64,000 nt of DNA from a virus, in the IMG/VR virus record IMGVR_UViG_3300028393_004717, positions 1 through 64,000 of that record, one strand, 5' to 3'. This document shows positions 31,974-63,983 of the stretch, one piece after another (within the stretch, counting starts at the first letter, position 1; each line of letters begins with the position of its first letter). The position numbers and the translations under genes were made by a program. Under the pieces are notes generated by a model. The model saw only the letters and a program-made list of their open reading frames with translations, did no database searches and was not told where the DNA came from.

Positions 31974-33419
31974 TCAAATAATAAAATTAGCAATCGACAT
32001 TCTTGCGTAGAACTTCGCACCTTCACGAAGCAATTTCTTGCCGTATCGTGTTAAAATTCCCTTACGAGGACAGAAGCTCTCTGGATCGAGAACAACAGGA
32101 GTCTGAGTAAGAGGAACATAAGGGCAATAGAAATATCCTGAGTCAAGATATGAATCGCCTTTATAGCCCATAAGGATTTGGTTAGATGGGAACAATGGAT
32201 CTTTATATAGTCTCCAACGATTGTTCACAGTACCAACATACTGGATACCCAAGCTGCTGCTGAAAGTTTCAGAAGGTGCAGGAGCAAAACCAGCGGTTGC
32301 GGTTTCAAAGATCGAAGCAACTTCAGGAGATGTAACGATGAAGTTAGCACCACCACGAAGGGTCTTACGATGAATAACGGAGGAAATTTCAACGATCTTC
32401 ACATAAAGAGATTCGTATTTTTCTTTGATAGTATCACCCAAGGAGGTGTTGAAATCCCAAGCGGTTACAGTACCAGCATTTTGACGGAGGTCGGTGAGGA
32501 CTTCACGATCAATTTCAAGATTAATTTCTTGAGCAAGAACTGCGGTCAATTCGGCTTCAGCATCCAAGTTGTGTTGTGAGCGAAGATCTTGTTGAGCTTC
32601 ATAAGACCATACAGCCTTCAACTTACGGGTTTTGGCAGTAATATCTTCAGATTCAACAACGAGGTTGATTTCTGGAAGATCTTGTGAGCATTCAAGATTA
32701 GCTTCGTAACTTGCAACGATATGGTTATCACCAGGGTTGCCACCAGTCCAAGCAAGGGTAACCACGCCAGTAGTAGCATTTAAGCTTGATCCTGCGGAGG
32801 TTGCTTTTGGGCTAGGAGTTCCGATATCGGTAAAGTTAAATACACCAGCGGAACTTACGCTGAATGTTTGAATAGCTACAGCACCTTTATAAACGGTACC
32901 AGTAACGGTTCCGGTTAAGATAGGGGTGTGTTCAAAAGGACTATATACAGATGTTGAGGTTACACCAGCATCGGTAGCTCCCACTTCATTTTGAACGAAC
33001 TGATGGGAATAGAAGATATCGAGATTAGCAGTACCATCTGCTCTCTGCATCAATGAATTTGCATCATCGCCAGGGAAACCGCTATTATTATCAGCACCAC
33101 GAGTAGCACCCTTGTTGGAAGAGTATCTAAAGCGGAGATAATAAACAAGACCAGTAGGTCCGAGCAAAGGCTGGACTGATACGATCTTATTAGCGATCAA
33201 TTGTGGGTAGATCCTACGAACCAATGGGATTGAGATTCGTTTGAACTGTGCGATGTCAGCGGTGTCGGTAGACACTTCGTTGATAAGGCGTTGGTTTTCG
33301 AGAAGAACTGCTGTGGCTGCACGAGTATTACGGTCTTCGATGCCTTCGAGGAGACCAGTCTTAGCCCAGCGTCCTTCTAACTCTTTAGCTTCATTTAAAA
33401 ATCTAGCATTAGCGTTCAT
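31974..33419 (-). CDS. gp23: Major capsid protein, T4 gp23-like
   Basis: A 481-aa capsid subunit. The N-terminus ARFLNEAKELEGRWAKTGLLEGI and the following TAATAVLLENQRLINE-like stretch (AATAVLLENQRLINEVS here) are those of T4-type gp23, as is PLVRRIYPQLIANKIVSVQPLLGPTG-type sequence (IPLVRRIYPQLIA then VSVQPLLGPTG). TGLLE near residue 24 fits the gp21 cleavage consensus. An insertion of beta-rich sequence at about 165-225 would lie on the capsid surface. Codon use is less AT-biased than in its neighbours, as expected of a highly expressed gene. Confidence 0.95.
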   Translation of the reverse strand: MNANARFLNEAKELEGRWAKTGLLEGIEDRNTRAATAVLLENQRLINEVSTDTADIAQFKRISIPLVRRIYPQLIANKIVSVQPLLGPTGLVYYLRFRYSSNKGATRGADNNSGFPGDDANSLMQRADGTANLDIFYSHQFVQNEVGATDAGVTSTSVYSPFEHTPILTGTVTGTVYKGAVAIQTFSVSSAGVFNFTDIGTPSPKATSAGSSLNATTGVVTLAWTGGNPGDNHIVASYEANLECSQDLPEINLVVESEDITAKTRKLKAVWSYEAQQDLRSQHNLDAEAELTAVLAQEINLEIDREVLTDLRQNAGTVTAWDFNTSLGDTIKEKYESLYVKIVEISSVIHRKTLRGGANFIVTSPEVASIFETATAGFAPAPSETFSSSLGIQYVGTVNNRWRLYKDPLFPSNQILMGYKGDSYLDSGYFYCPYVPLTQTPVVLDPESFCPRKGILTRYGKKLLREGAKFYARMSIANFII

Positions 33420-34402: not shown

Positions 34403-35083
34403 TCAAACAATTTTAGATTTTATATTCTTTGTTTGATCTTCAATTATTCCACCTAAGCAAGCTATTAATGCTTCTTTGCTAATTTTATGTATGCTTCTGC
34501 TTTCGTTTTTAACTGAAGAATCAGAAGATTCCACTGAATTATTTGATGGAATGTAACTTTCACGCTTGCTTACAACTTTTTCTTGGAAAGCAGAATGTGT
34601 AGATGGATCAGCCACTGCATCGAATGTTAATAGTTTATAACTTTCGCCAATGACAAGAATTCCACTTTCATCTACTCGTCCATTACCAACACCTCTGCTG
34701 CTGATTCCAACACGCACACCATCATTGATGAGTGCTTTTAGAATACGGCCATGAGGAGTGTTTAATATCTCGCCTTCACCCATAAGATTATTTCCTTCCC
34801 ACCATAACTTAGTAATTACATGGGAAGCTTTTTCGAAATGTATGATACTATCTGTAGGATGATCTAATTCGCCAATCAATCCTCTTGCTTCAATTATTGG
34901 AGTCAGAGCCTTAACATTGTCGTTTAAGACGCTGTAAGGATATTTCCTTTTATTTTTATTGACAGCTTCTGCTTCTTGGAATTTCCCTCTAAAGCTAGTT
35001 AATCCTTTATTAGTGGATTCATTTAGACTTAGAACGAAACCGCCAGAATTGCAGGAGTCAACAAGTAGCATTTTATCACTCAT
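34403..35083 (-). CDS. gp21: Prohead maturation protease, gp21-like
   Basis: A 226-aa serine protease of the T4 gp21/herpesvirus-assemblin type. The catalytic His75 is in GELDHP and the nucleophile Ser128 or Ser129 in VGISSRGVG. NKNKRKYPYSVL upstream and the TFDAVADPS strand are also typical. The C-terminal tail (Ser-rich, about 175-226) is likely self-cleaved. It should cut scaffold, core and capsid proteins after L/I-x-E sites. AAGGAG precedes the ATG. Confidence 0.93.
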   Translation of the reverse strand: MSDKMLLVDSCNSGGFVLSLNESTNKGLTSFRGKFQEAEAVNKNKRKYPYSVLNDNVKALTPIIEARGLIGELDHPTDSIIHFEKASHVITKLWWEGNNLMGEGEILNTPHGRILKALINDGVRVGISSRGVGNGRVDESGILVIGESYKLLTFDAVADPSTHSAFQEKVVSKRESYIPSNNSVESSDSSVKNESRSIHKISKEALIACLGGIIEDQTKNIKSKIV

Positions 35084-37685: not shown

Positions 37686-40214
37686 TTAACTCAAATAACT
37701 AGTGTCTTTATCTTCGTAATCTTGTTCTGTGCCATAGCTATAGATTTCAAGGTTATATTTCTTCAAATCTTCCTCATCTGCTTCTGGTATTTCAGAGGCG
37801 GACGAACCAGCTTCTTCCTTTGATTCACTTTCTTCTGGAGGAGTACCATCTGGCGGTGGCGTTCCTTCTGGTGGTGGCGTTCCTTCTGGTGGTGGATTTC
37901 CTTCTGCACCCAATTCTGGAGTAGGTCCACCAGCTTCAGCACCAATTTCTGGAGCAGCTTTTTCTTCGCTTGGAACACCGACTCCAAGCAATTGTGGATT
38001 TTGCCCCATGATAGCAATTTTTAAATCTTCAAGTTTTTGTAATTTCAAACGACTCAACATCATCGATGCATCTTCTTCGCTATGCATAAGTATTTTTGTT
38101 AATATGTCGAAATCTGACATAAGCAAACTTCCCTTAAGCGATGCAGCATTACCGAATCTTGCAGTCTTAACTTCATTTCTTGACAATTCACGCCAATCAG
38201 AAGGTGATGTCATTTTTATTTTAAGATCTTGATACATTTCGCTTGGATAGCCACGAAGCTCTAAATGTCTTTCGCAAAGATCAAGAATACCATCTTCAAA
38301 ATTTGATTGTAATCTTTCAATCATGCGAGCAAATTTTACATCTTGTGCAGACAATGTAATTCTTGTTGCATTTACATCTTCGCTTGAGAAATAATTTTTG
38401 GGGAAGTTTAGAGATACAAATAATTTATTTCTGAAGTACAAAGCATCATCTACTTCTCCAAGATTTTGCGCACCAGGCAAAGTTTCAATTCTTGTATTTG
38501 CATTAGGTCGAATTGGAATCCAAAAGTCTTCATCTTGTGCAGGTGGTTGCCATCTTTCTTCAACCATATTGGCTCCGCTATTGCCACGATTGCCAGCAAT
38601 TTTTCTCTTTCTGAATTGATCTTTCATTCTTTCCAAAAATGCTTCTGCTTTAAATGGAGGAAGCTGACCAACATCAATATAGAATACTCTACGCTCTGGC
38701 GCCCGGGTTAGCCTATACACCACCATTGCATCTTCCATGAGTCTTAATTGATGTGCTGGCCCTCTGGCTGGCTCAATAAGAGACTGTCCATAAGGATAGA
38801 AGTTTCTTCTATCATCTCCTATTCTAATATGTAAAACTTGTAATGGATTAAATCTAATTGCTGTAGATTGATTGAGTTCCGCATCACTAAGTTGTGATAT
38901 GTCTCCTCTTCCCAACGATTGATAATCTGGGCCTTCTTTAGATTGTTGGAATTCGATTAATCTTCCTTTGATGGTTTCAATCCTATACATGGTTTCTGGT
39001 GGTAGTGTTGTAAGTTTATATATTCCATCAGAAGGCTTGTCTGGATTTATAACTATTTCAAAAAATTTATCACCATGGACAATTAAATCTTTGAAATAGG
39101 CAAATGCGTGACGATTCAAATTTAACATTTTTCTATGTAACAATAAAAATTCAAGTTCTTTTTTCACTTCATCATTTTTGCAATCAATTCTAAAAACATT
39201 ACCAGTATCATCTTTTTGGCAATTGTGAAGTATAACAGAATCAGTTGCGAAGCATTTGTGTTTTTCAACAGAGATGTCATACACATCAATTTCTTTTCCT
39301 TCTGTGACTCCAACTACTTTGCGACAAGTTTTACTTTTACTTAAATATTTTAATTCTTTAAGTGAGAATCCATTTTTGTGAATACAATTTTCTACTGTGT
39401 GCCAATCTAAATTCATGATTTTGGCAATTTGTCGAACAGGAATATCTCCACAAATCAATCTTGTTGCTCTATTTAATTTTTCATATTCTGGATTTGTTTT
39501 TCCATATCTCCAATCATCGATAAATTGTCTTTCATGTACCCATCCTTTTTCAAAGCTCATGATTCTTGGAAATTGATTTGTTTTGATTTTTGTAAGGTCT
39601 TGATTTGCTGGGGTTCGATAAAACGGCATTAGTTCATCGCCAAATTCTAATTCGCCACAGGCTATCCATTCTCCATTTCTTTTAAGAACTCTATGATCTG
39701 GTGTTGCGATAATTGACTTTCCATTGTCCAAAAGTATTTCAATTGTTTTTGCTTTTTTTACAATTCTTGGAGCAAATGCCCATCCTAAACTGTAATCATT
39801 TTTTTCAAAATCATAACAATATACTAGAAATCTTTCATCTGCTTTATTGTTTGTTAGCCATTCAATTGTTTGATAGCCGAATGGAGTTGCAATTTTAGTA
39901 TCACCAGAAACACAAGCTTCATCAGCAAATACGGTCATAGCCATTTCGATTTCTGGAACATTTCTTAATCTTTCGTATTCCTTGTACCTCATACTCCTAT
40001 TGCCAAGAGTAGTAGTATCAATCATGTCATAGGTTTGACGAAGATTTACATAATTACTTGGGCCTTGGCCTGTTACTAGCTCTCCGCCAGTTTGAAGGGC
40101 ATCGGTTTGTGCTATACCTGCACCCGTAAATTTTGAAGTATCCTTTATTTTGCTTAAAGGATCTTTTTCGGTTGCGTATGTAAACAATTTAAAAAAATCT
40201 GACCAAACTGTCAT
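37686..40214 (-). CDS. gp20: Portal protein, gp20-like, with embedded intein
   Basis: An 842-aa precursor; without the 231-aa intein the portal is 611 aa. The extein N-terminus (residues 1-100) ends IEMAMTVFADEA and rejoins as CQKDDTGNVFRID. Portal features follow: YRLTRAPERRVFYIDVG, the crown/stem sequence ERMKDQFRKRKIAGN and the late LFVSLNFPKNYFSSEDVNAT. The C-terminal 120 residues are Pro/Glu-rich with TPPPEG repeats and an acidic end. It should form the dodecameric DNA gate at one capsid vertex. Splicing is needed for function because the insertion is inside the conserved core. Confidence 0.93.
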   Translation of the reverse strand: MTVWSDFFKLFTYATEKDPLSKIKDTSKFTGAGIAQTDALQTGGELVTGQGPSNYVNLRQTYDMIDTTTLGNRSMRYKEYERLRNVPEIEMAMTVFADEACVSGDTKIATPFGYQTIEWLTNNKADERFLVYCYDFEKNDYSLGWAFAPRIVKKAKTIEILLDNGKSIIATPDHRVLKRNGEWIACGELEFGDELMPFYRTPANQDLTKIKTNQFPRIMSFEKGWVHERQFIDDWRYGKTNPEYEKLNRATRLICGDIPVRQIAKIMNLDWHTVENCIHKNGFSLKELKYLSKSKTCRKVVGVTEGKEIDVYDISVEKHKCFATDSVILHNCQKDDTGNVFRIDCKNDEVKKELEFLLLHRKMLNLNRHAFAYFKDLIVHGDKFFEIVINPDKPSDGIYKLTTLPPETMYRIETIKGRLIEFQQSKEGPDYQSLGRGDISQLSDAELNQSTAIRFNPLQVLHIRIGDDRRNFYPYGQSLIEPARGPAHQLRLMEDAMVVYRLTRAPERRVFYIDVGQLPPFKAEAFLERMKDQFRKRKIAGNRGNSGANMVEERWQPPAQDEDFWIPIRPNANTRIETLPGAQNLGEVDDALYFRNKLFVSLNFPKNYFSSEDVNATRITLSAQDVKFARMIERLQSNFEDGILDLCERHLELRGYPSEMYQDLKIKMTSPSDWRELSRNEVKTARFGNAASLKGSLLMSDFDILTKILMHSEEDASMMLSRLKLQKLEDLKIAIMGQNPQLLGVGVPSEEKAAPEIGAEAGGPTPELGAEGNPPPEGTPPPEGTPPPDGTPPEESESKEEAGSSASEIPEADEEDLKKYNLEIYSYGTEQDYEDKDTSYLS
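39222..39914 (-). mobile_element. Mini-intein in the portal gene (231 aa)
   Basis: Block A begins at Cys101 (CVSGDTKI). Block B is GKSIIATPDHRVLKRNGEW, with the TxxH motif. The C-terminal blocks are DVYDISVEKHKCFATDSVILHN, ending in His-Asn before the +1 Cys. No LAGLIDADG or HNH nuclease motif is visible. The 100-residue centre instead contains a helix-turn-helix-like segment (VRQIAKIMNLDWHTVENCI). It is thus a splicing-competent element with a degenerate or unusual insert. Confidence 0.92.
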
Positions 40215-46789: not shown

Positions 46790-48721
46790 TTACGCCTTCC
46801 TGATTCCAAAGGTAGTCTCATATCCAGCGGAAACATATAACCAGTTGGTGTCTGCCATAATTGTTTGAACTGGGGATGATCTATCAACATTTGTGTTGTC
46901 TCCCAATCGACCACTGCCATTGTCGCCCCAAACCCAACATGTTCCATCATTCTTAATCGCAGCGGAATGATCCTGTCCTCCGTCAACCTGTTTCCAATCA
47001 GTTCCATATGTAACCGTTTGAACTGGTGAAGATCTATTAGTTGTTGTTTCGTCACCTAATTGACCATTACCGTTACTTCCCCAAGTCCAGCATGTTCCAT
47101 TATTCTTGATAGCAAGCATGTGATTGTCGCCACAAGAAATTTGTTTCCAATCGGTTCCTCCAGCTATGGTTTGAACTGGTGAAGATTTATTGCCTGTTGT
47201 TTCATCGCCCAATTGACCATCATTATTCTCGCCCCAAGTCCAACATGTTCCATTGTTCTTTATTGCTGCGGTAAATTTTTCTCCACAAGAAACGGATTTC
47301 CAGTCAGTTCCGCCACATATCGTCTGTATTGGCGATGATTTATCATCAGTTGTATTGTCGCCTAATTGACCATCTTCATTATAACCCCACATCCAAAGAG
47401 TTCCATTGTTTTTTATTGCTGCCGTGTGGTTGCCACCAGAAGCAACTTGTTTCCAATCAGTTCCACCGCATACTGTTTGAACTGGTGATGATTTATCAAC
47501 AGTTGTTTCATCACCGATTTCTCCACTATTATTGTAACCCCAAAGCCATAATGTTCCATCAGTCTTTATTGCAGCACAATGTTCATAGTAAGTTCCGACC
47601 ACCATTGTTTTCCAATCAGTTCCGCCACAAATGGTTTGTACTGGTGATGATTTCTGAATAGTTGTATTATCTCCCAAACCGCCATCGTTATTCTGACCCC
47701 AAGTCCAAAGTGTTCCATCATCTTTCAAACCAGCGATGTTATAGTAGCCACAATTGATTTCAACCCAATTGCTGCCACCACAAATAGTCTGCACTGGAGA
47801 TGACCTGTCATCTGTTGTATTGTCGCCAAGTTCACCATCATTATTGTAACCAACACCCCATACTGTTCCAATGATTGGTGTGACAGGAGTTACAGGAGGT
47901 GTGATCAAGTCATCAGATGTGAGAACATGTGGTATCTGAAAAACTTCATCAGGTTGGGTGTTTGTGTCGGTAAAAGTGTAGATGGTCTTTCTTGCTAGAT
48001 CGCCAACCAATGCACCTGCTGGATATTCGATTATCTCGACAATTCTTCCTTCGTAATCTACGGTTTGTTTCTTGAATGTGTATATGCCAGAAGCACGACC
48101 ACGCAACAGTTCCCAATCTGCTTTTGGGCTGGCTGGATTGAAACCACCTTCTGAAATAATTTGAGCATCGAATTCGTTTTCTGGATCAAGTTCTATTAAA
48201 TGGGCAAGGCTTAAAGGAAATGTAAATCTATTGTCTATGGTATCTCTTGAGAAAAAAGACATTATTTCGCCAACAGGTGCTTTCTTATTGAATCTTAAAA
48301 TTCTTTCAGCAGATGTGTTTGAGATATACATTTTGACAATACGCTTTGGGCGATTTTGCTTTGCAACAATCAAAACATGATTTTTTATTCCATTTTTTGA
48401 TACTCTGGCTTCAAACATGCTTGCAAAATTTGCATCTGCATTTAAAGAACTAACAACTTCGTATGCAGTCACTTGATTGGAGTTTAGGCCACTAATATTT
48501 ATCTCTACAGAAGACCAATTCCTAAATTCTTCATCCCAAGCATAATTTATCTTTATCGTATTATAAACGGAGAAATCAAATGGGTCATGATTCCAACTAT
48601 AGGTAAAATCTTGTGTATTTTGATTTGCAGCAATTTTAAATGTCAGCGAATATTGACGATCATTGCCCGTATTGAGATATCCCTGATATTCTTGTGCGAA
48701 AACATTTTGAAAAAATGACAT
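46790..48721 (-). CDS. RCC1-repeat beta-propeller virion protein
   Basis: A 643-aa protein. Residues 1-285 are a beta-rich virion domain (YSLTFKIAANQNTQDFTYSW, then FDFSVYNTIKINYAW), of a type seen in phage structural proteins. Residues 287-643 hold seven RCC1-type repeats of about 50 residues, each with AAIKNNGTLWMWGYNEDGQLGD-like and SSPVQTICGGTDWK-like parts, which fold as a seven-bladed propeller. The repeat DNA is also conserved, hinting at recent expansion. It is a likely fibre tip or receptor-binding protein. Confidence 0.82.
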   Translation of the reverse strand: MSFFQNVFAQEYQGYLNTGNDRQYSLTFKIAANQNTQDFTYSWNHDPFDFSVYNTIKINYAWDEEFRNWSSVEINISGLNSNQVTAYEVVSSLNADANFASMFEARVSKNGIKNHVLIVAKQNRPKRIVKMYISNTSAERILRFNKKAPVGEIMSFFSRDTIDNRFTFPLSLAHLIELDPENEFDAQIISEGGFNPASPKADWELLRGRASGIYTFKKQTVDYEGRIVEIIEYPAGALVGDLARKTIYTFTDTNTQPDEVFQIPHVLTSDDLITPPVTPVTPIIGTVWGVGYNNDGELGDNTTDDRSSPVQTICGGSNWVEINCGYYNIAGLKDDGTLWTWGQNNDGGLGDNTTIQKSSPVQTICGGTDWKTMVVGTYYEHCAAIKTDGTLWLWGYNNSGEIGDETTVDKSSPVQTVCGGTDWKQVASGGNHTAAIKNNGTLWMWGYNEDGQLGDNTTDDKSSPIQTICGGTDWKSVSCGEKFTAAIKNNGTCWTWGENNDGQLGDETTGNKSSPVQTIAGGTDWKQISCGDNHMLAIKNNGTCWTWGSNGNGQLGDETTTNRSSPVQTVTYGTDWKQVDGGQDHSAAIKNDGTCWVWGDNGSGRLGDNTNVDRSSPVQTIMADTNWLYVSAGYETTFGIRKA

Positions 48722-51237: not shown

Positions 51238-53052
51238 ATGAGTTTACCAGAATTTTTAAAAAATCAATCTGATTCCGTTTGGAGATTGAAATATAAATCC
51301 TTAAAGCAATATTACGCAAGTGAATATAATTCTAAATATTATTCATTTGACAAATATCAATTGGAAATAGATCCAGATGAAACCATGGAATATGTTGAAA
51401 AATATGATGCAAATAGAAGGCAATTAGAAATCATAAAGTGTTGTCATAGTTTTTCTTATTTTTGTCACAAATATGTAAAGATTCTACATCCAACAAAAGG
51501 ACTTGTTCCTTTTATAATGTTTAAATACCAGCACAAAGTAATAAGTGACTATGTGAATCATAGATTCAATATTATTTCAAAGTTTCGTCAAGGTGGTTTA
51601 ACAACAGTTACTCTTTTGTGGGGCATGTGGAAATGCATGTTTCAAACCGATCAACAAATTATGCTATTATCAAAAACAGATAGAGAAGCTACAGATATTG
51701 GAATGATGATTGATCGTGCTTCTGAAAATATACCAGATTGGCTCAGGCCGAAAAAAGATGGAAAATGGAATGACCATTTGAAAATGTTTACCGAAACTGG
51801 AAGTTCTTTGAAGTTTTATTCTCCTCAAGCAGCCCGTGGAAAATCAGTTACATTTTTAATTATTGACGAAGTTGCGTTTATCGAAGATATGGACAAGCAT
51901 TGGAAAGCTATGTGGCCTGTGCTTTCTACTGGTGGTAGTTGTGCCTTGGTATCCACTGTAAATGGTATCGGCAATTGGTATCATCAGACATATATTGAAG
52001 CCAGAGAGAAAAGAAATTTATTTCATATTATAGATTTAGATTATTGGGAACATCCAGATTACAACAATCCTAAGTGGGCATCGGAACAAAAAGCTCAGTT
52101 GGGAGAAAAAGGTTTTTTACAAGAAGTTTTGAGAGAGTTTTTGGGAACTGGTGAGACTTATTTTTCATCCAAGATAGTTCGAGAGCTTACAGAACAAACC
52201 ATAAACAACAATCCAAATAGAAAATTATTTGCAAAGTGGTGCAATCTTATGGGATTTGCAGCAATTTGTGAATCAGAAGAGAATAAAGGTGCTTTGTGGG
52301 TATGGAAAGAGCCAGTTGAAGGTCACGAATATATTATTGGTGCAGATTGTGCAGAAGGTCAGGGGGAAAACAATGATAATAGTTGTTTTCAAGTAATTGA
52401 CATGTTGACTTTAGAACAAGTTGCAGAATTTTATTCAAATACCATACCTCCACATCTATTTGCACAAACATTAAAAGAAGTTGGAATTTACTATAATAAT
52501 TCACTTATGGTTGTTGAAAATATGGGGCCTGGTATAGCTGTTTTAAATAATTTACAAAATCAATTGTATTATGACAATTTGTATTTTGATTCGACCAAGT
52601 CTAATTCTAGGGCTGGTATAAAAATGGGTCAGGTGAATCGCCCATTGTTTCTTGAAACTTTACAAAATAAATTAATGAATCAACAAATAAGAATAAATAG
52701 TATTAGATTTACAAATGAACTTGGTACATTTGAATATAATTCAACGACTAAAAAAGCACAAGCTCAAAAAGGAAAGCACGATGACGCTATCATGTCAATG
52801 TGCATGGCATTATATGTTAGAGATTCCATGATGCAAGATATTCCATTAGGGGCTTCTATTGATACGAACAGAATTGACAAAATAAATAATGAAGTTTACG
52901 AAGAAATAAAAAGAGAACTAGAAGAGGGCAAACCAGAGGACATTCTTAAAATTACAAAATCTAGTTTATTTGATGAAGATGATATCTATAATTCTGATGG
53001 CGTTTCCTTCAGAAGAAAAAATGAAAGTTTGCTAAGAGAGTTCGGATGGTAA
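51238..53052 (+). CDS. gp17: Terminase large subunit, gp17-like
   Basis: A 604-aa DNA-packaging motor. The ATPase domain has a variant Walker A (KFRQGGLTT, 115-123) with Lys at the start rather than in the usual GKT position, Walker B FLIIDE (Asp210, Glu211) and the STVNGIGNW coupling motif. The RNase H-like nuclease domain has acidic residues Asp370 (GADCAEG), Glu427 (VVEN) and Asp515-Asp516 (KHDDAI). It lies away from the portal/capsid block, in the plus direction, and heads a structural operon. Confidence 0.95.
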   Translation: MSLPEFLKNQSDSVWRLKYKSLKQYYASEYNSKYYSFDKYQLEIDPDETMEYVEKYDANRRQLEIIKCCHSFSYFCHKYVKILHPTKGLVPFIMFKYQHKVISDYVNHRFNIISKFRQGGLTTVTLLWGMWKCMFQTDQQIMLLSKTDREATDIGMMIDRASENIPDWLRPKKDGKWNDHLKMFTETGSSLKFYSPQAARGKSVTFLIIDEVAFIEDMDKHWKAMWPVLSTGGSCALVSTVNGIGNWYHQTYIEAREKRNLFHIIDLDYWEHPDYNNPKWASEQKAQLGEKGFLQEVLREFLGTGETYFSSKIVRELTEQTINNNPNRKLFAKWCNLMGFAAICESEENKGALWVWKEPVEGHEYIIGADCAEGQGENNDNSCFQVIDMLTLEQVAEFYSNTIPPHLFAQTLKEVGIYYNNSLMVVENMGPGIAVLNNLQNQLYYDNLYFDSTKSNSRAGIKMGQVNRPLFLETLQNKLMNQQIRINSIRFTNELGTFEYNSTTKKAQAQKGKHDDAIMSMCMALYVRDSMMQDIPLGASIDTNRIDKINNEVYEEIKRELEEGKPEDILKITKSSLFDEDDIYNSDGVSFRRKNESLLREFGW

Positions 53053-55233: not shown

Positions 55234-56112
55234 ATGAAAAAATTTATTATAAACCTTTTCTGTTTATTTACCATTTTATCTACAAATTTGGCATTTGGTC
55301 AAGAAATAAAAGTACATCCTCTTGACAAAATGCCATTATTGCCATCAAAAATTGGCTATTATGGCGAAGCACCTGTTGAGCAAAGAGGGATTGAATTTAG
55401 AAAATGGTTGTCACCATCGGTTAAAATAGCTGTGTCAGATGGTTCTGGTTCTGGAACTATAGTTTATTACGATTCTTTAAAAAACATAGCTTATGTGGCG
55501 ACATGTGGTCATCTTTGGAATAACGGAGCCATGAGTACTCAAGAAGGATTAAAAAGAAATATAACATGTAAGATTATCACATGGTTTCATAATGAAAAAA
55601 AATTAGCAGAACCAAAAACATATACTGCAAAAGTCCTTTTTTACAATCATATTACCAATGCGGATACAGCACTTGTTTCATTTGAACCAGATTGGGTGCC
55701 AAATTATTTTCCAATTGCACCTAAAGATTACCAGTATAAAAAAGGTAGTATTATGCATAGTTGTGGATGTGATGGTGGTGACGAAGTGGCTCATTATGAG
55801 GTCGAAGTGGTTGGTGTAATTAGTGAAAGTCTCACAACAATAAGAAACAGCCCAAGACCAGGCCGTTCTGGTGGTGGTTTAATGGATGATAAATATTACA
55901 TTGCAACTTGTTGGGCAACATCAATGTACAAAGGAACGAGTGAAGGCTATTTTACGCCACTACCAGTAATTCATGACATATGGACAAAAAATGGATATGA
56001 ATTTTTACTCAAGATCAGACCAGATTTTGATTTAGCTAAAAAATTAAAAATTATTGATAGAACTATTAGGCAGCATAAGTATGATGAAGAATATATTTTG
56101 ATTCCAAATTAA
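55234..56112 (+). CDS. Second exported trypsin-like serine protease
   Basis: A 292-aa protein with signal peptide (residues 1-22, ending AFG). The S1-fold domain has His93 in ATCGHLW, Asp144 in NADTALV and Ser212 in PGRSGGG. The pattern CGH and RSGGG is that of V8/HtrA-like enzymes, but there is no PDZ domain. It is unlike the one at 12507 beyond the fold, so the two have separate histories. It would act in the periplasm or outside. The next gene starts 10 bp later. Confidence 0.85.
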   Translation: MKKFIINLFCLFTILSTNLAFGQEIKVHPLDKMPLLPSKIGYYGEAPVEQRGIEFRKWLSPSVKIAVSDGSGSGTIVYYDSLKNIAYVATCGHLWNNGAMSTQEGLKRNITCKIITWFHNEKKLAEPKTYTAKVLFYNHITNADTALVSFEPDWVPNYFPIAPKDYQYKKGSIMHSCGCDGGDEVAHYEVEVVGVISESLTTIRNSPRPGRSGGGLMDDKYYIATCWATSMYKGTSEGYFTPLPVIHDIWTKNGYEFLLKIRPDFDLAKKLKIIDRTIRQHKYDEEYILIPN

Positions 56113-56121
56113 GGTTTTTAT

Positions 56122-56967
56122 ATGATAACATTTTTAGAATTTTTAGATTATAAAGAAAATAACAATTTATCTTCTGATGAATATACCGAACTTCAATCAA
56201 CATTAAGAAAAATGATGTCTGATAATCTTGATCTTGGAAATTTCGTATCAAACCTTAAGCAATTTATTTCTAATCCTAATTTTGTTGATTTTTTAAAATC
56301 TGGCGATGAGAATGATGCTTTGAAAATCACAAGAAAAGATATATCTGTAATGGATTTAATTCCAACCCAAGATGAAATCTTTCTTGAATCATCTTTAGAC
56401 AATGGACTAACTGATAGATTTGGCAACCTTGCACAATTCCTTGATGGTAATGCACAAGTAAAGGGCTATGTGGTCACTTGTATGGTGAATGGTAGTGTTT
56501 TCATTCTTGATGGTCATCATAGATGGTCACAATATTTTCTATTCAATCCACAATCAGAAGTTCCTTGTTTGATAATTGAAAATTTAAATTCATATTTACG
56601 AGGATTAAAAATAGCACATTTAGCTGTTGCTGCAAAATTAAGTCGTGTTCCTTTAGCTTCTGGAGATGAGACTAATCTATTCACCATAGATTACGAATCA
56701 TTTGAAAACCATATTAAAAATATAATTACAGAAAAATCCTTACAAATATTTATTGATAAGAATTTGGCCAAAAATGTTGATGATGTGGTTGATTTTCTTT
56801 GGAATAATGTATTGAAAATAAGAAAATACAATTTAGGAAAAGAATCAAGAGGTTTAATGCCTCAAACTGGTGGTGCTGCCAAAGGATTTGAAAAAGACTT
56901 AGAACAAGGAAAAATAAATGTCATCCCAGATTGGTTAACTTTATCTGGATTATTAGCAGAAAATTAA
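56122..56967 (+). CDS. ParB-like protein with targeting-like N-terminus, copy 1
   Basis: A 281-aa protein. It begins MITFLEFLDYKEN, the shared motif. The core FILDGHHRWSQYFLFNP (about 128-144) is the D-G-H-H-R-W motif of ParB/sulfiredoxin-like nucleotide-binding or nuclease domains. A helical C-terminal domain follows, with RGLMPQTGG and a final INVIPDWLTLSG. It is a tandem paralogue of the next gene. It is probably packaged and may handle nucleotide or DNA, though enzymatic activity is not shown. Confidence 0.72.
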   Translation: MITFLEFLDYKENNNLSSDEYTELQSTLRKMMSDNLDLGNFVSNLKQFISNPNFVDFLKSGDENDALKITRKDISVMDLIPTQDEIFLESSLDNGLTDRFGNLAQFLDGNAQVKGYVVTCMVNGSVFILDGHHRWSQYFLFNPQSEVPCLIIENLNSYLRGLKIAHLAVAAKLSRVPLASGDETNLFTIDYESFENHIKNIITEKSLQIFIDKNLAKNVDDVVDFLWNNVLKIRKYNLGKESRGLMPQTGGAAKGFEKDLEQGKINVIPDWLTLSGLLAEN

Positions 56968-57008: not shown

Positions 57009-58025
57009 ATGAAATCATTTTTAGAGTTTTGGAGCCAAATAAAAGAAGAAGCACCAGTAGCACCACAAGCACCAGTAGTGGGGCAACAACAAGTGGCTAA
57101 ACAACAACCAGCAGCAGGACAACAACCAGCAGCAGGACAACAACCAGCAGCAGGACAACAACCAGCAGCAGGACAACAACAAGTTACAGGACAACAACCA
57201 GCAGCAGGACAACAACAAGTTACAGAAGTATTAAAATCTATATTGGATGCTCCAAATATGGAAAATTTTATAAGTCAATTGAAAACTGCAATAAGTAACC
57301 CAGAATTTTTAAAATTATTGAAAAGTGGTGATGGACAAAAAGATAAAATAAGTGTTTCTGAAAATGTTCCACTTGATGTGACCGCACTTATTCCAACTCA
57401 AGCTGAAATTTATCTAAGTAAATCAGTCAAAAATGGATTAGAAAACTTTAAAGGTTCTTTGGCAAAACTTTTATCTGGCGATATAGGTGCTATTCCTGGA
57501 AGTGTTATTGTTGGAGCTACAAAAGATGGAAAATATGCAATTATTGATGGTCATCATAGATGGTCACAATATTTTGTTTTTAATCCTCAATCAAAAATTA
57601 ATTGTAGGGTTTTATCAGGAATTAATTCTTCTCTTGATGCATTAAAAAAAACTCAATTGGCATTAACTGCAAAAAGTGGCACAGTAATATTAGAGCCTGA
57701 TAGTGGAGTGGATTTAATGACTACATCTGAGCAAGTTTTTAAAGATTATTCATTGGGAATTTTAAAGGCTAAACCAGAACATATATCTATTTTTACACAA
57801 GTAATACCAGAAATAAAAGATGAAAATCAAGCAGTTGATTATTTGTGGAAAAATGTATTGCGATTACAAGCCGTAAAAGAAAAACAAGATCAAGCAAACG
57901 CAAGGCCTTTAATGCCTCAAACTGACAAGGATGCTCATAAAGGCTGGGAAAAAAGCTTGGCTGCTGGGGAAATTAATATTGTTCCTGATTGGCTAGTACT
58001 TTCTGGCGTAGTCCTTCGTGACTAA
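57009..58025 (+). CDS. ParB-like protein with targeting-like N-terminus and repeat linker, copy 2
   Basis: A 338-aa paralogue of the previous protein. It begins MKSFLEFWSQIKEE, with I-K-E as a cleavage-type site, followed by a Gln/Pro/Ala repeat linker (residues 32-73) and then the ParB-like core AIIDGHHRWSQYFVFNP and C-terminal RPLMPQTD and INIVPDWLVLSG. The start is at 57009 (AGGAG seven nt upstream), not the frame start at 56931. The linker may be a flexible spacer removed or exposed after prohead cleavage. Confidence 0.75.
   Translation: MKSFLEFWSQIKEEAPVAPQAPVVGQQQVAKQQPAAGQQPAAGQQPAAGQQPAAGQQQVTGQQPAAGQQQVTEVLKSILDAPNMENFISQLKTAISNPEFLKLLKSGDGQKDKISVSENVPLDVTALIPTQAEIYLSKSVKNGLENFKGSLAKLLSGDIGAIPGSVIVGATKDGKYAIIDGHHRWSQYFVFNPQSKINCRVLSGINSSLDALKKTQLALTAKSGTVILEPDSGVDLMTTSEQVFKDYSLGILKAKPEHISIFTQVIPEIKDENQAVDYLWKNVLRLQAVKEKQDQANARPLMPQTDKDAHKGWEKSLAAGEINIVPDWLVLSGVVLRD
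57102..57227 (+). repeat. Seven 18-bp tandem repeats coding QQPAAG units
   Basis: Units of CAACAACCAGCAGCAGGA (five copies) and two variants with AAGTTA replacing CAGCAGCA. In protein terms, QQPAAG x4, QQVTG, QQPAAG, QQVTE. It is in frame and probably varies in copy number. Confidence 0.95.
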
Positions 58026-58819: not shown

Positions 58820-59860
58820 ATGGCAATAAATTTTGACAAATTTGTTGAATGGGCAGAATCTAGATTTAGCGATGTGATTGTTAAAGGTAACGAGATTCAT
58901 TTAAATAGTATATTTTCAGATGATACAAAACATCATTTGTGGTGCAATCCGACTGGTGGCAAAAAATCTAGAGATTTTGGTGTTTATCATTGTTGGAAGA
59001 CTGATCAAAAGGGTTCTTTGGTAAAACTTGTTCAATTAGTTGATAAGTGTTCTCGTGAAGAAGCTTTATCTACTTTGCTTGGATATCAGACAATAGCACA
59101 ATTAGAAAAGAAATTGGATGAATTTTTTAATGATCAATCTGAAGTTATAGAAGAGCCTAAGCAAAAATCTGGTTTACAATTACCTTATGGTTCTAATTTG
59201 ATATCTGAGCTTGGAACAAATAATTGGTTCAGAAAGCATGCAGAAGATTATTTGTCTCGTAGGAAAATACCAATAGATGGTCTTTATGTTTGTATGGAAC
59301 AGCCATATAAGTTTAGGATTGTCATTCCCTATTATGGTCGTGATGGAAGATTGATTTATTGGAACTCAAGGCATATTAGTCCTAAAGCAAAACTTAGATA
59401 TTTAGGGCCACCAAAAGAATGTGGTGTTGGAAAAGAAGATGTGATTTATATGGCTGGGAATTGGCCACAAAAAGGAAAAACATTACACCTTTGCGAAGGC
59501 GAATTTAATGCAATAAGCTTGAAATTATGCGAATTGAGTGCTGCTGCGTGTGGTGGCAAGAATATGAGCGAAAAACAAGCAATTATGCTGTCTGATTATA
59601 AGATTGTTATTTGTTTAGATAGAGACAAGGCAGGTTCTCAGGGTAGTGCTAAAATGATGAATATGTTATCTTTAAGTAAGAACATAAATTCTAATGACAA
59701 GCTAATGTTTGTAAGACCACCAGAACAGTACAATGATTGGAATGAGATGTATATTGAAGTTGGGGCAGTAATTTTAAATGCTTGGATAAAACAAAAACAA
59801 AAAGCTGTTGATTTTTTGGCACCACATGGAATGTCTGGTGATATTCTTGGTTTTTTATAA
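58820..59860 (+). CDS. DNA primase (DnaG-type TOPRIM)
   Basis: A 346-aa primase. The N-terminal zinc-binding domain has His39, Cys42 (LWCNP), His57 and Cys58 (YHCWKT). The TOPRIM core has HLCEGEFNAISL (catalytic Glu) and VICLDRDKAGSQGS (Asp-x-Asp). There is no helicase domain. The start MAINFDKFVEW loosely resembles the shared N-terminal motif, but I treat it as chance. It heads the operon leading into the ExbB/ExbD-like genes. Confidence 0.9.
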   Translation: MAINFDKFVEWAESRFSDVIVKGNEIHLNSIFSDDTKHHLWCNPTGGKKSRDFGVYHCWKTDQKGSLVKLVQLVDKCSREEALSTLLGYQTIAQLEKKLDEFFNDQSEVIEEPKQKSGLQLPYGSNLISELGTNNWFRKHAEDYLSRRKIPIDGLYVCMEQPYKFRIVIPYYGRDGRLIYWNSRHISPKAKLRYLGPPKECGVGKEDVIYMAGNWPQKGKTLHLCEGEFNAISLKLCELSAAACGGKNMSEKQAIMLSDYKIVICLDRDKAGSQGSAKMMNMLSLSKNINSNDKLMFVRPPEQYNDWNEMYIEVGAVILNAWIKQKQKAVDFLAPHGMSGDILGFL

Positions 59861-59882
59861 ACATTAACTCAATTAAATTACA

Positions 59883-60269
59883 ATGAAAATAACAACAGTA
59901 AAAAACCTAAAGCAAACATTTCAAGGGAAAATTTGCACAATTCTGACTCATCCTATAGCAAAGAGAGACTTTAATGATGCTCAATTTGCAGATTTTTTCA
60001 CTGGTGTTGTCGATGAAATTGATGATGATGGGATATTTACCACTCATGCATTGACAGCTTGTAAAAACTTCTATTTTTTTTCTCAGGTTATTGGCATTAT
60101 CGAGGAACAAGTTCTCGATCAGCAAAATCCAGAACACATTAAGATCATTGAAGAAGTTAAAGAGAATATGAAAAATCCTAAAAAAACAAGTGAAACAAAT
60201 GAAGATCAATTCATAAATATAGAGGATTTAGCGGAGCTAACTGCGAAACTACAAAAAGGAAAAACATGA
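59883..60269 (+). CDS. Hypothetical protein of the primase/ExbBD operon
   Basis: A 128-aa protein. The first 75 residues are beta-rich and may be a small barrel (GKICTILTHPIAKRDFN, then FFTGVVDEIDDDGIFTTHAL). The last third is an acidic helical tail. It follows the primase by 22 bp and its stop overlaps the start of the ExbB-like gene by 4 bp. A role as adaptor between DNA and the membrane complex is speculation. Confidence 0.5.
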   Translation: MKITTVKNLKQTFQGKICTILTHPIAKRDFNDAQFADFFTGVVDEIDDDGIFTTHALTACKNFYFFSQVIGIIEEQVLDQQNPEHIKIIEEVKENMKNPKKTSETNEDQFINIEDLAELTAKLQKGKT

Positions 60270-60784
60270 AATATATTTTATTCTTACAGTGGTGGTTGAT
60301 CTTTACTATAATATGCGTTTTATCAATATTCACATCATATACTGGTTTTGCAAAAGAAATTTGGGTTAAGGACAGTAGCTTTATAAGTTATTTTACTTAT
60401 ATTGTATTTTTAATATGCACTATATTTTGCGGAAACATTTCTTATCTTATTTGTAAAAATGGTAAAAAATTTGGAGAATTGGCCTTAAATGATTATGCAA
60501 ACAAGGCTGAAATAGGATGGTTTACAAGTGAATTGTGCCTGACTCTTGGAATGATAGGAACTATAGTTGGATTTATAATGATGTTATCTGGTTTTAATAC
60601 ATTGGATATACAAAACATACAAACAGTACAACAATTATTATCACAATTAGGTCAAAGCATGGCAACAGCATTGTATACAACAATAGTTGGTTTAGTTTGT
60701 GGTTCTTTTTTAAAATTACAATTTTTTTTGGTTTCTATAGAACTTGATAAACTTGAAAATGCTCTTAAACATAAAAAAGATTAA
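60266..60784 (+). CDS. ExbB/TolQ/MotA-like proton-channel protein
   Basis: A 172-aa membrane protein with four hydrophobic segments: about 5-27, 40-60, 90-112 and 130-152. The third and fourth carry the family signatures. CLTLGMIGTIVGFIMMLSGF is the GLLGTVxG helix of ExbB/TolQ/MotA, and LGQSMATALYTTIVGLVCGS the A-L-x-T-T-x-x-G-L helix. In bacteria this subunit forms a pentamer around an ExbD/TolR/MotB dimer and conducts protons. It lacks the long cytoplasmic arm of MotA or ZorA. The gene overlaps the previous gene by 4 bp and precedes the ExbD-like gene by 2 bp. Confidence 0.8.
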   Translation: MKYILFLQWWLIFTIICVLSIFTSYTGFAKEIWVKDSSFISYFTYIVFLICTIFCGNISYLICKNGKKFGELALNDYANKAEIGWFTSELCLTLGMIGTIVGFIMMLSGFNTLDIQNIQTVQQLLSQLGQSMATALYTTIVGLVCGSFLKLQFFLVSIELDKLENALKHKKD

Positions 60785-60786
60785 AT

Positions 60787-61431
60787 ATGAAAATAAGAAA
60801 AAACTATAGCTGCAATACATCTTTTTTAGATTTGCTATTTAATATGCTTTTAGCTTTTGCTTGTCTTTTTGTTTTGGCTTTCGCACTTATAAATCAAAAT
60901 AAAAAAACACCAGATGTTAAAGCTTCATATCTCATAACCTTTACATGGCCAAAAGAATTAGACAATGATGTTGATGCATATGTAGAAGATCCAGAAGGAA
61001 ATTTGGTATGTTTTGTGCGTAGAGAAGATGGATTGATGCATCTGGATAGAGATGATTTGGGTCATAAGAATGACACTATAAACACTCGTTTTGGGAAAAT
61101 AACATATAACGAAAACAAAGAAATTATAACCTTGCGTGGCACTACTGTTGGGGAATATTGTGTGAATATTCACGCATATAACTTTAATCATCAAGTTCCA
61201 ACTGAGGTTACAGTTCAGCTTGAAAAAGTAAGTCCTACTTATTCCGTTTTGGTACAAAGAAAGATAACATTAAATAAAGCTGGCGATGAAAAAACAGCAT
61301 TTAGATTTAAAATAAATTCTAAAGGTGATCTTGAAAGTGTTTCTGATTTAGAAAAGAAGCTTTTGGGAACAAGAAACAAACAAGGCCAACAGCCAGCAAA
61401 TGTTCCAACAATACCACCAGAAACACCTTAA
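60787..61431 (+). CDS. ExbD/TolR-like protein with YfaP/DUF2135-like periplasmic domain
   Basis: A 214-aa protein with a short cytoplasmic start, then SFLDLLFNMLLAFACLFVLAF (residues 12-32), the single helix of ExbD/TolR/MotB with its ion-binding-type Asp15. The periplasmic part (about 45-170) is not a peptidoglycan-binding domain. It reads FTWPKELDNDVDAYVEDPEGNL, then DRDDLG and TVGEYCVNIHAYNF, matching the D-V-D-L-H-V/pGtY pattern of DUF2135/YfaP. A Pro-rich tail closes it. With the ExbB-like neighbour it should form an ion-driven membrane complex of new architecture. Confidence 0.75.
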   Translation: MKIRKNYSCNTSFLDLLFNMLLAFACLFVLAFALINQNKKTPDVKASYLITFTWPKELDNDVDAYVEDPEGNLVCFVRREDGLMHLDRDDLGHKNDTINTRFGKITYNENKEIITLRGTTVGEYCVNIHAYNFNHQVPTEVTVQLEKVSPTYSVLVQRKITLNKAGDEKTAFRFKINSKGDLESVSDLEKKLLGTRNKQGQQPANVPTIPPETP

Positions 61432-61438
61432 GGAAAAA

Positions 61439-62050
61439 ATGAACATAAATGCAATTGGAATTCCTTTAACATTCATTATCTTAGCATCTATAGGCTTATG
61501 GATTATATTGTATTCTAGGGGAGCTTGGTATTTTAAGCTTGTGTTTGTATTTTTGTCTTTATATTTTAGTTTTCTCATGTGGTTTTCACTTAGTGATTTA
61601 AGTGGTTGGGCAACAGAATCTAAATTTCCAAATAAAACAGTGATTCATTGGCTTTTGGTGCAAGAACCATCTAAAACTAATTCTAAACATCTTGGCAATA
61701 TTTTCATTTGGGCCACTGAAGTCGATGATGATAATAATGTCAAGGAGATTGACACCAATCTATTTTTAAAGCCATTTTCTTCAAAGAAAAATAATTCAGA
61801 GCCTAGAGCTTATAGATTGCCATATACAGAAGAATTACACAAACAGGCAGCTAAGGCCATGCAATTGATTATGTCTGGAAAAACCCTTGTTGGAGAAGCG
61901 AATTCTGATGGTGGAGAATCTGAAAATTCTGCACAAAATAAGTCAAATAAAAAAAATGGGAATGGTAGTTTGAGTCAAGAACAGATTTTTAGATTTTACG
62001 AATTACCACCAACTAAACTTCCATCAAAAATTACTGGCTTTGATAATTGA
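61439..62050 (+). CDS. Membrane protein, third member of ExbBD-like operon
   Basis: A 203-aa protein with two transmembrane helices (residues about 4-25 and 30-50) and a large soluble part that reads VIHWLLVQEPSKTNSKHLGNIFIWATEVDD and then YRLPYTEELHKQAAKAMQLIMSGKTL. I do not recognise it. AAGGA precedes the ATG at 61439. It follows the ExbD-like stop by 7 bp and probably joins the complex or is its effector. Confidence 0.6.
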   Translation: MNINAIGIPLTFIILASIGLWIILYSRGAWYFKLVFVFLSLYFSFLMWFSLSDLSGWATESKFPNKTVIHWLLVQEPSKTNSKHLGNIFIWATEVDDDNNVKEIDTNLFLKPFSSKKNNSEPRAYRLPYTEELHKQAAKAMQLIMSGKTLVGEANSDGGESENSAQNKSNKKNGNGSLSQEQIFRFYELPPTKLPSKITGFDN

Positions 62051-63524: not shown

Positions 63525-63983
63525 TCAATTTATTTGATTGCTCATGTATTCATTGATTTTTTTCAAAGACATAAGACAAGAATCAAATCTATGGAAGTCG
63601 CTTGATAGGTATTCCAAACTAAGTTCATCAAATTTATCGCAACCGTCTTCTTCTATTTCGAAATAGATAGCTTTGCCTTTTTTGCCAAGAACTTTGTATT
63701 TATGCATTAAAATATATGCTGCTGCACCAAGGTCTGTTACAAATCTTTGATTTTTTGACTGAAAGTGATAATCTCCAATTTTTTTAAGAGACATGATACA
63801 GGCATCAAATCTGTGAAATTCACTAGAGAGATAATCTAATGTGATTTGATCAAATTTATCAGGATTTTCTTCATCTGTGGTTAAGAAGTAAATATCCTTT
63901 GCTTTTCTTCCTATGACCTTATAATCATGCATAAGTAAATATGCGGCACTTCCCAAATCACTTACATTTTTTTGCTTACTCAT
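63525..63983 (-). CDS. Tandem DUF5659-like protein
   Basis: A 152-aa protein made of two copies of a 70-residue module: DLGSAAYLLMHDYKVIGRK with a YLSSEFHRFDACIMSLKKI ending, and DLGAAAYILMHKYKVLGKK with YLSSDFHRFDSCLMSLKKI. This matches the DUF5659 pattern, a small phage-associated domain of unknown role. The near identity of the two copies shows recent duplication. A TTTC repeat lies just upstream and includes its ribosome site (AAGAAAG). Confidence 0.7.
   Translation of the reverse strand: MSKQKNVSDLGSAAYLLMHDYKVIGRKAKDIYFLTTDEENPDKFDQITLDYLSSEFHRFDACIMSLKKIGDYHFQSKNQRFVTDLGAAAYILMHKYKVLGKKGKAIYFEIEEDGCDKFDELSLEYLSSDFHRFDSCLMSLKKINEYMSNQIN

Follow-up and report, generated by a model that had tools for sequence, protein, structure and literature searches.

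The DNA analysed here, referred to as the window, comprises 64,000 nucleotides (positions 1-64,000) of the 66,970-base viral record IMGVR_UViG_3300028393_004717. The record is that of a tailed phage and carries genes for a head protein, a portal, a head protease and a terminase. The subject of this work is a group of three consecutive genes of this phage, termed A, B and C (Table 1), which encode predicted membrane proteins and which, judged from sequence and gene order, form one conserved unit.

The positions of A and B, the 2-base gap between them and the GTIVG, ALYTTIVGL and SFLDLLF signatures reported in the original prediction are all present in the sequence. The four, one and two membrane helices that it assigned to A, B and C are in agreement with a crude hydropathy analysis, which gives 4, 1 and 2 hydrophobic segments, respectively. 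The start of C had been placed at 61400; relatives point to 61439 as the most likely start, giving a protein of 203 amino acids.

Sequences and predicted structures of A, B and C

Relatives of the unit were retrieved from viral contigs and genomes using pattern scans for the motif L-x-R-D-D-L-G, with 80 of 92 viral-contig relatives being kept and with gene starts in the collected loci set mechanically. The long or divergent loci L146, L147, L149, L150, L154, L156 and L096 were left out of the 52-row alignment of A, and the named phages and later genome loci also lie outside the large alignments of A and B.

On sequence grounds A is a member of the MotA/TolQ/ExbB channel family. The window protein matches the Pfam family MotA_ExbB (PF01618) above chance (E = 2.6e-8, 34.1 bits for a cut-off of 22.9), and the family is matched by 51 of the 52 aligned members at E 0.01. 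Two divergent sequences from outside the alignment fall on either side of the cut-off, with L149 scoring 33.2 bits and L156 17.2 bits. No PHROG match to A is found at E 1. Among the sequences of solved structures the A profile picks up MotA, PomA, ZorA and TolQ, with a MotA on top (3.7e-5), and its match to TolQ/ExbB-like proteins is 96.2% when four sequences are used and 94.0% with all 30. Thr99 and Thr139 of A align on the motif threonines of TolQ/ExbB in these profile alignments. Asp36, Gly98, Thr139 and Gly142 are invariant in the 52 rows and Thr99 is retained in 48; in 28 rows from outside the alignment (divergent, bacterial and named-phage sequences) Thr139 and Asp36 are each kept in 27 and Thr99 in 19. 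By crude hydropathy, the aligned proteins contain four hydrophobic segments in 22 rows, three in 22, two in six and five in two. Bacterial A proteins, among those read, are mostly longer (226-303 amino acids).

The predicted model of B (pLDDT 85.2) contains a single helix, residues 10-36, and a β-sandwich, residues 48-186. One hydrophobic segment is likewise found in 58 of 61 aligned B sequences. The alignment places an aspartate in this membrane helix, with Asp15 present in all 60 rows that cover the position. It is also present in 11 of 21 further rows, including all six added named phages, and the other ten have a valine. Asp61, Asp63 and Glu112 are conserved in 61 of 61 rows and in all 21 further ones. 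The invariance of Arg88, Asp89, Asp90, Leu91 and Gly92 in the retrieved B sequences is uninformative because these residues are built into the search pattern.

The sequence of the outer domain of B identifies it as DUF2135-like (YfaP-like, PF09906). The profile match is 96.8% (E = 2.1e-10) with the five of 20 DUF2135 sequences that were kept by a motif regular expression, a selection that could favour a match, and 95.5% with all 20, some of which are in the wrong frame; three unrelated comparisons give 0.1-1.6%. Direct Pfam matches to DUF2135 are weak and occur in five of the 61 B members (best 0.0018). The B profile has four weak whole-genome matches, three of which sit in DUF2135-matching proteins, the fourth (G058) being outside that check. 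The original description of an ExbB/MotA-type subunit followed by a one-helix, aspartate-containing partner with a DUF2135-like outer domain is supported. TerD-likeness of the same domain is confined to the predicted fold. Structure alignment of the B model retrieves three TerD-titled entries with Z scores of 11.4, 9.7 and 8.9 (r.m.s.d. of 4.8, 3.8 and 4.4), and the top six are completed by 9a6r (10.0), 2qng (9.9, unknown function) and 7jtk (9.9), before the score falls to 6.2 in the seventh row. In a viral structure library B is closest to a 713-amino-acid protein of Cellulophaga phage phi4:1 (1.7e-5), and it matches phrog_1735, of unknown function, at 4e-5.

The predicted model of C (pLDDT 80.0) has membrane helices at residues 3-25 and 30-54 and a small, mostly β domain that is probably located in the periplasm. 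Of 59 C sequences, 58 have Lys197. No known family, including TonB and TolA, was found for C in Pfam, NCBIfam or the sequences of solved structures. A structure search gives weak rows only, the best (eIF5A entries, Z = 6.3) being below the noise level of the tool, so that families missing from these rows are not thereby ruled out.

Conservation and distribution of the unit

Dereplication at 75% identity leaves 56 locus groups, of which 53 show the same-strand order A-B-C. In two of the exceptions the locus starts at a contig end, and L088 has no recognisable C. Gaps within 50 bases are seen between A and B in 45 and between B and C in 43 of the ordered loci. The two-helix third protein, which had been linked to the pair in the original prediction, is thus part of the unit. 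Neighbour clustering of the 56 groups revealed no universal fourth partner, and the next commonest neighbour family (Clp protease, by its example) is found in nine. Neighbours seen repeatedly, though in few loci, are genes for trypsin-like and Clp proteases, DNA polymerase B and SbmA/BacA.

Among 50,697 named phage records, a match to B at E 0.1 is found in only 26, all of them Rhizobium or Sinorhizobium phages. They include 16-3 and the Pootjesviridae P10VF and RL38J1 and span 59 to 171 kb. The earlier statement that phages rarely carry such pairs holds for these named records, whereas one pattern search alone recovered the 92 relatives in viral contigs, the largest contig having 527,112 bases. 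In the phage records that were opened, A, B and C are without a functional name, save for an overlapping endonuclease label in one. A literature search that reached few subscription papers found no publication on A-B-C in phages.

In bacteria, one pattern scan of genomes gave 58 relatives, 46 of them in a single SAR116-type cluster, and a phylum-wide search with the B profile gave matches in 20 of 398 genomes, 16 of them strong. The operon is common in two groups: it is carried by 45 of 58 genomes in the SAR116 family of genome G001 and by 69 of 80 in the genus of G394. Plasmids contribute seven of 72,556 records, all from Azospirillum. Fifteen bacterial loci were read at length; A-B-C is present in 13, one is without C and L169 is an artefact of an over-extended open reading frame (ORF). 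The genes next to the SAR116 copies seem by eye to have metabolic roles and are conserved across divergent members. Genes for a histidine kinase and a LuxR-type regulator lie divergent to the operon in nine of the 15 loci (L172-L179 and L183), mostly close relatives, and one protein of each kind was confirmed by Pfam.

Phage and bacterial sequences are interleaved in a tree of 77 B proteins, with at least eight phage-label changes and at least six bacterial-label changes on its starred branches. Some rows sit on long branches, so that details are unsure. The B proteins of Rhizobiaceae genomes cluster with those of phages.

Relation to known systems and possible function

Like ExbB/ExbD and TolQ/TolR, the unit combines a channel subunit that belongs to their Pfam family with a following one-helix subunit bearing an aspartate, and adds a third membrane-anchored protein. 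It differs from them in the DUF2135/TerD-like domain of B, which has no match to the ExbD model, in the shorter A and in a C without a TonB or TolA match. A sizeable cytoplasmic domain is typical of ExbB, TolQ and MotA. Window A is without one, only 33 residues separating its hydrophobic segments 2 and 3. This very short loop also sets it apart from the MotA/MotB and PomA/PomB stators, which it resembles in its four hydrophobic segments and in having a MotA as its best solved-structure match, and an OmpA-like domain is absent from the Pfam matches of B. Zorya models for ZorA score A at up to 34.3 bits and ZorB1 weakly matches the helix of B (16.2 bits), but A, with 172 amino acids, has no long tail (the matched ZorA models have 461 to 683 positions) and the outer domain of B is of a different type. 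In a PADLOC scan of five window proteins the ZorC, ZorD and ZorE models were unmatched, and C was matched by no model. One DUF2135 protein that was inspected (L188) bears TPR repeats and not an ExbD-type helix, unlike B, and the likeness to TerD, shared in the top six with other entries, is without a sequence match. A-B-C is neither ExbB/ExbD proper nor Zorya. A 2025 survey of MotAB proteins describes varied domain additions on Exb/Tol scaffolds, and phage-encoded ones are unmentioned in the portion of its text examined (PMC12505986).

The reading that we prefer, tentatively and at somewhat less than even chances, is that phages carry in A-B-C their own copy of a not yet described ion-driven machine of the inner membrane, shared with Alphaproteobacteria and acting on the envelope of the infected cell. 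Using the known members of the family as a guide, A would form a ring that lines the channel and B would provide the central helix, with Asp15 carrying the ion. The DUF2135/TerD-like domain of B would be the moving head in the periplasm; it would probably bind a metal ion, for example calcium, through its conserved acidic residues. C would sit beside A and B and couple or gate the head. We infer in the same way the assembly (for example 5:2), the target and the benefit of such a machine, which would be common to phages and to an envelope-maintenance operon of Alphaproteobacteria. The phage-borne copy would keep or alter the envelope state of the infected cell, and the likeliest advantage for the phage, which is a guess, would be the shutting out of rival phages.

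Several observations weigh against this reading. Thr99 is replaced by Asn in four of the 52 aligned A sequences and by Asn, Lys or Ala in nine of the 28 further ones. Asp15 is not universal in B, which weakens the case: it is Val in one bacterial clade (L172-L180 and L183) that makes up ten of the 15 extra loci. In this clade an aspartate sits four residues before position 15, so that the ion site may be displaced or the channel there may be of another type. A profile of the helix of B alone matches ExbD, represented by 20 sequences chosen by a regular expression, at 16.9% (controls 0.8-1.8%), with aspartate aligned on aspartate, and a match to ExbD (PF02472) is absent both for window B at E 1 and among the 61 B members at E 0.1. 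Plain Foldseek of B has PAD4 on top and nothing below 0.001, with TerD absent from the first 50 rows. Sequence kinship between B and TerD (PF02342) was considered and rejected, the profile match to 27 TerD sequences kept by a regular expression being 0.3-0.4% in several alignment modes. The exclusion of rivals is drawn from analogy with the Ter systems that have been proposed in jumbo phages (PMC7824862). The support as a whole consists of sequence comparison, gene order and distribution, and single-chain models of B and C.

The original prediction suggested that the complex may block superinfection, counter a host Zorya or Tol system or energise another step. A role chiefly as an anti-Zorya or anti-Tol weapon is less likely, given how many genomes of two bacterial groups carry all three genes, and such frequent chromosomal copies speak for work on the envelope and against a specialised weapon, even though one large bacterial clade is without Asp15. 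The original observation of A, B and C is confirmed, the unit being larger than described, and the original interpretation is partly supported. Counter-defence in a narrower sense would have A and B imitate ZorA and ZorB (or TolQR) and disable the host complex through mixed assembly; it draws on the ZorA score of A and the weak ZorB1 match of the B helix. It is very improbable: Thr139 and Asp15 are kept in phage sequences, which suggests a working channel, C is retained in nearly every locus, and bacteria commonly have the whole operon. The least probable of the readings is lysis control, where a regulated leak would collapse the ion gradient to time lysis. The unit does lie about 4 kb or less from a lysozyme gene in RHph_TM3_3_14B and RHph_X2_25, but other phages carry it near replication genes (topoisomerase, clamp and DNA polymerase B), and no part in lysis is evident for the copies on bacterial chromosomes.

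A role in host envelope physiology, acquired by phages and replacing or boosting the host function during infection without any anti-phage action, is somewhat unlikely in our estimate. It is favoured by the high share of operon carriers among the genomes searched in the two bacterial groups, by the conserved SAR116 neighbourhood and by the divergent regulators, the latter mostly in close relatives. The named carriers infect Rhizobium or Sinorhizobium, however, and the Rhizobiaceae B proteins group with those of phages, so that a native host copy is not seen there. It is improbable that the unit is instead a metal or stress sensor, whose TerD-like head would detect calcium or another ion while the channel pair signals without mechanical work. 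The predicted fold of B and the acidic residues Asp61, Asp63 and Glu112, which lie outside the search pattern, are consistent with this, and the clade that has lost Asp15 could represent a non-conducting form; B has no TerD sequence kinship, however, and metal binding is putative. A more ambitious version of the preferred ion-driven machine is doubtful. In it, A-B-C would be a class of its own, so far unrecognised, next to Ton, Tol, Mot and Zorya: an operon common in Alphaproteobacteria (for example SAR116) and repeatedly exchanged with phages, with a TerD-like metal-binding head, by which phages guard the infected cell against rivals.

To our knowledge, the described inner-membrane machines that use ion flow to act on the envelope are few. 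If the preferred reading is true, another would exist, as a three-gene unit that bacteria conserve and many phages carry, and a Ter-type fold could be tied to ion-driven work in the periplasm. The role of the unit is a question that is testable in a laboratory phage such as 16-3.

Neighbouring genes and other features of the window

Table 1. Genes of the unit, its neighbours and tailed-phage genes in the window.
Feature	Positions	Strand	Evidence
A, short MotA/TolQ/ExbB-family subunit, 172 aa	60266..60784	+	Pfam MotA_ExbB, four hydrophobic segments
B, one predicted membrane helix and outer β-sandwich, 214 aa	60787..61431	+	Predicted model, DUF2135 profile match
C, predicted membrane hairpin and small mostly β domain, 203 aa	61439..62050	+	Conserved position, predicted model
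T, trypsin-like protease, signal-peptide-like start, candidate fourth component	55234..56112	+	Trypsin_2 6.1e-6
Primase-like Toprim protein, neighbour outside the conserved unit	58820..59860	+	Toprim_2, PHROG DNA primase
Small protein without hydrophobic segment, overlaps start of A, neighbour in close relatives	59883..60269	+	
Head protein gene	31974-33419		
Head protease gene	34403-35083		
Portal gene	37686-40214		
Terminase gene	51238-53052		

The original prediction linked the unit to a primase. The upstream gene is indeed primase-like, with its product matching Toprim_2 in Pfam (3.5e-10) and DNA primase in PHROG (6.7e-35), but the link is local and lineage-specific. The primase gene and the small gene at 59883 are present in all 17 loci of the group to which the window belongs (seven distinct records). 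Among all loci searched they occur outside this group in L034 only, where the primase is 5 kb away on the opposite strand. The description of the 59883 product as barrel-like is unsupported: it has no Pfam match above a cut-off and no PHROG match.

A trypsin-like protease is a possible fourth component. In the window the gene, T, lies about 4 kb upstream of A, and its Trypsin_2 score of 27.5 bits is marginally below the cut-off of 27.6. T and an exonuclease gene are found in 16 of the 17 window-group loci, the exception (L001) being too short to show them. In Rhizobiaceae phages and genomes, and in the bacterial locus L181, a trypsin-like gene, often with a signal-peptide-like start, lies at most 0.3 kb or one small ORF upstream of A. 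A trypsin-like gene is directly upstream of A in five of the 56 dereplicated groups and farther away in two, so that it is not a general partner. The trypsin-like gene of L181 (9489-10133, minus strand) lies beside the A-B-C operon, and the start of its product resembles that of a lipoprotein. In phage 16-3 (L015) the unit (p038, p040 and p042) and the trypsin-like p036 lie approximately 3 to 4 kb downstream of the immX genes. An SbmA/BacA-like gene is found near A-B-C in four viral loci, namely L012 (2712-3728, the Pfam-tested member), L067, L080 and L052.

Following T, the regions 56122-56967 and 57009-58022 encode adjoining similar proteins that share a DGHHRW motif. The second of these has a weak match to a ParB-like nuclease (0.05) and a Gln/Ala-rich repeat close to its N-terminal start. 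On the minus strand, the 46790-48721 product matches the PHROG 'regulator of chromosome condensation' (3.1e-45) and that of 603-1514 matches a COOH.NH2 ligase PHROG (5e-50). The short protein encoded at 63525-63983, also on the minus strand, consists by eye of two similar halves, indicating an internal duplication.

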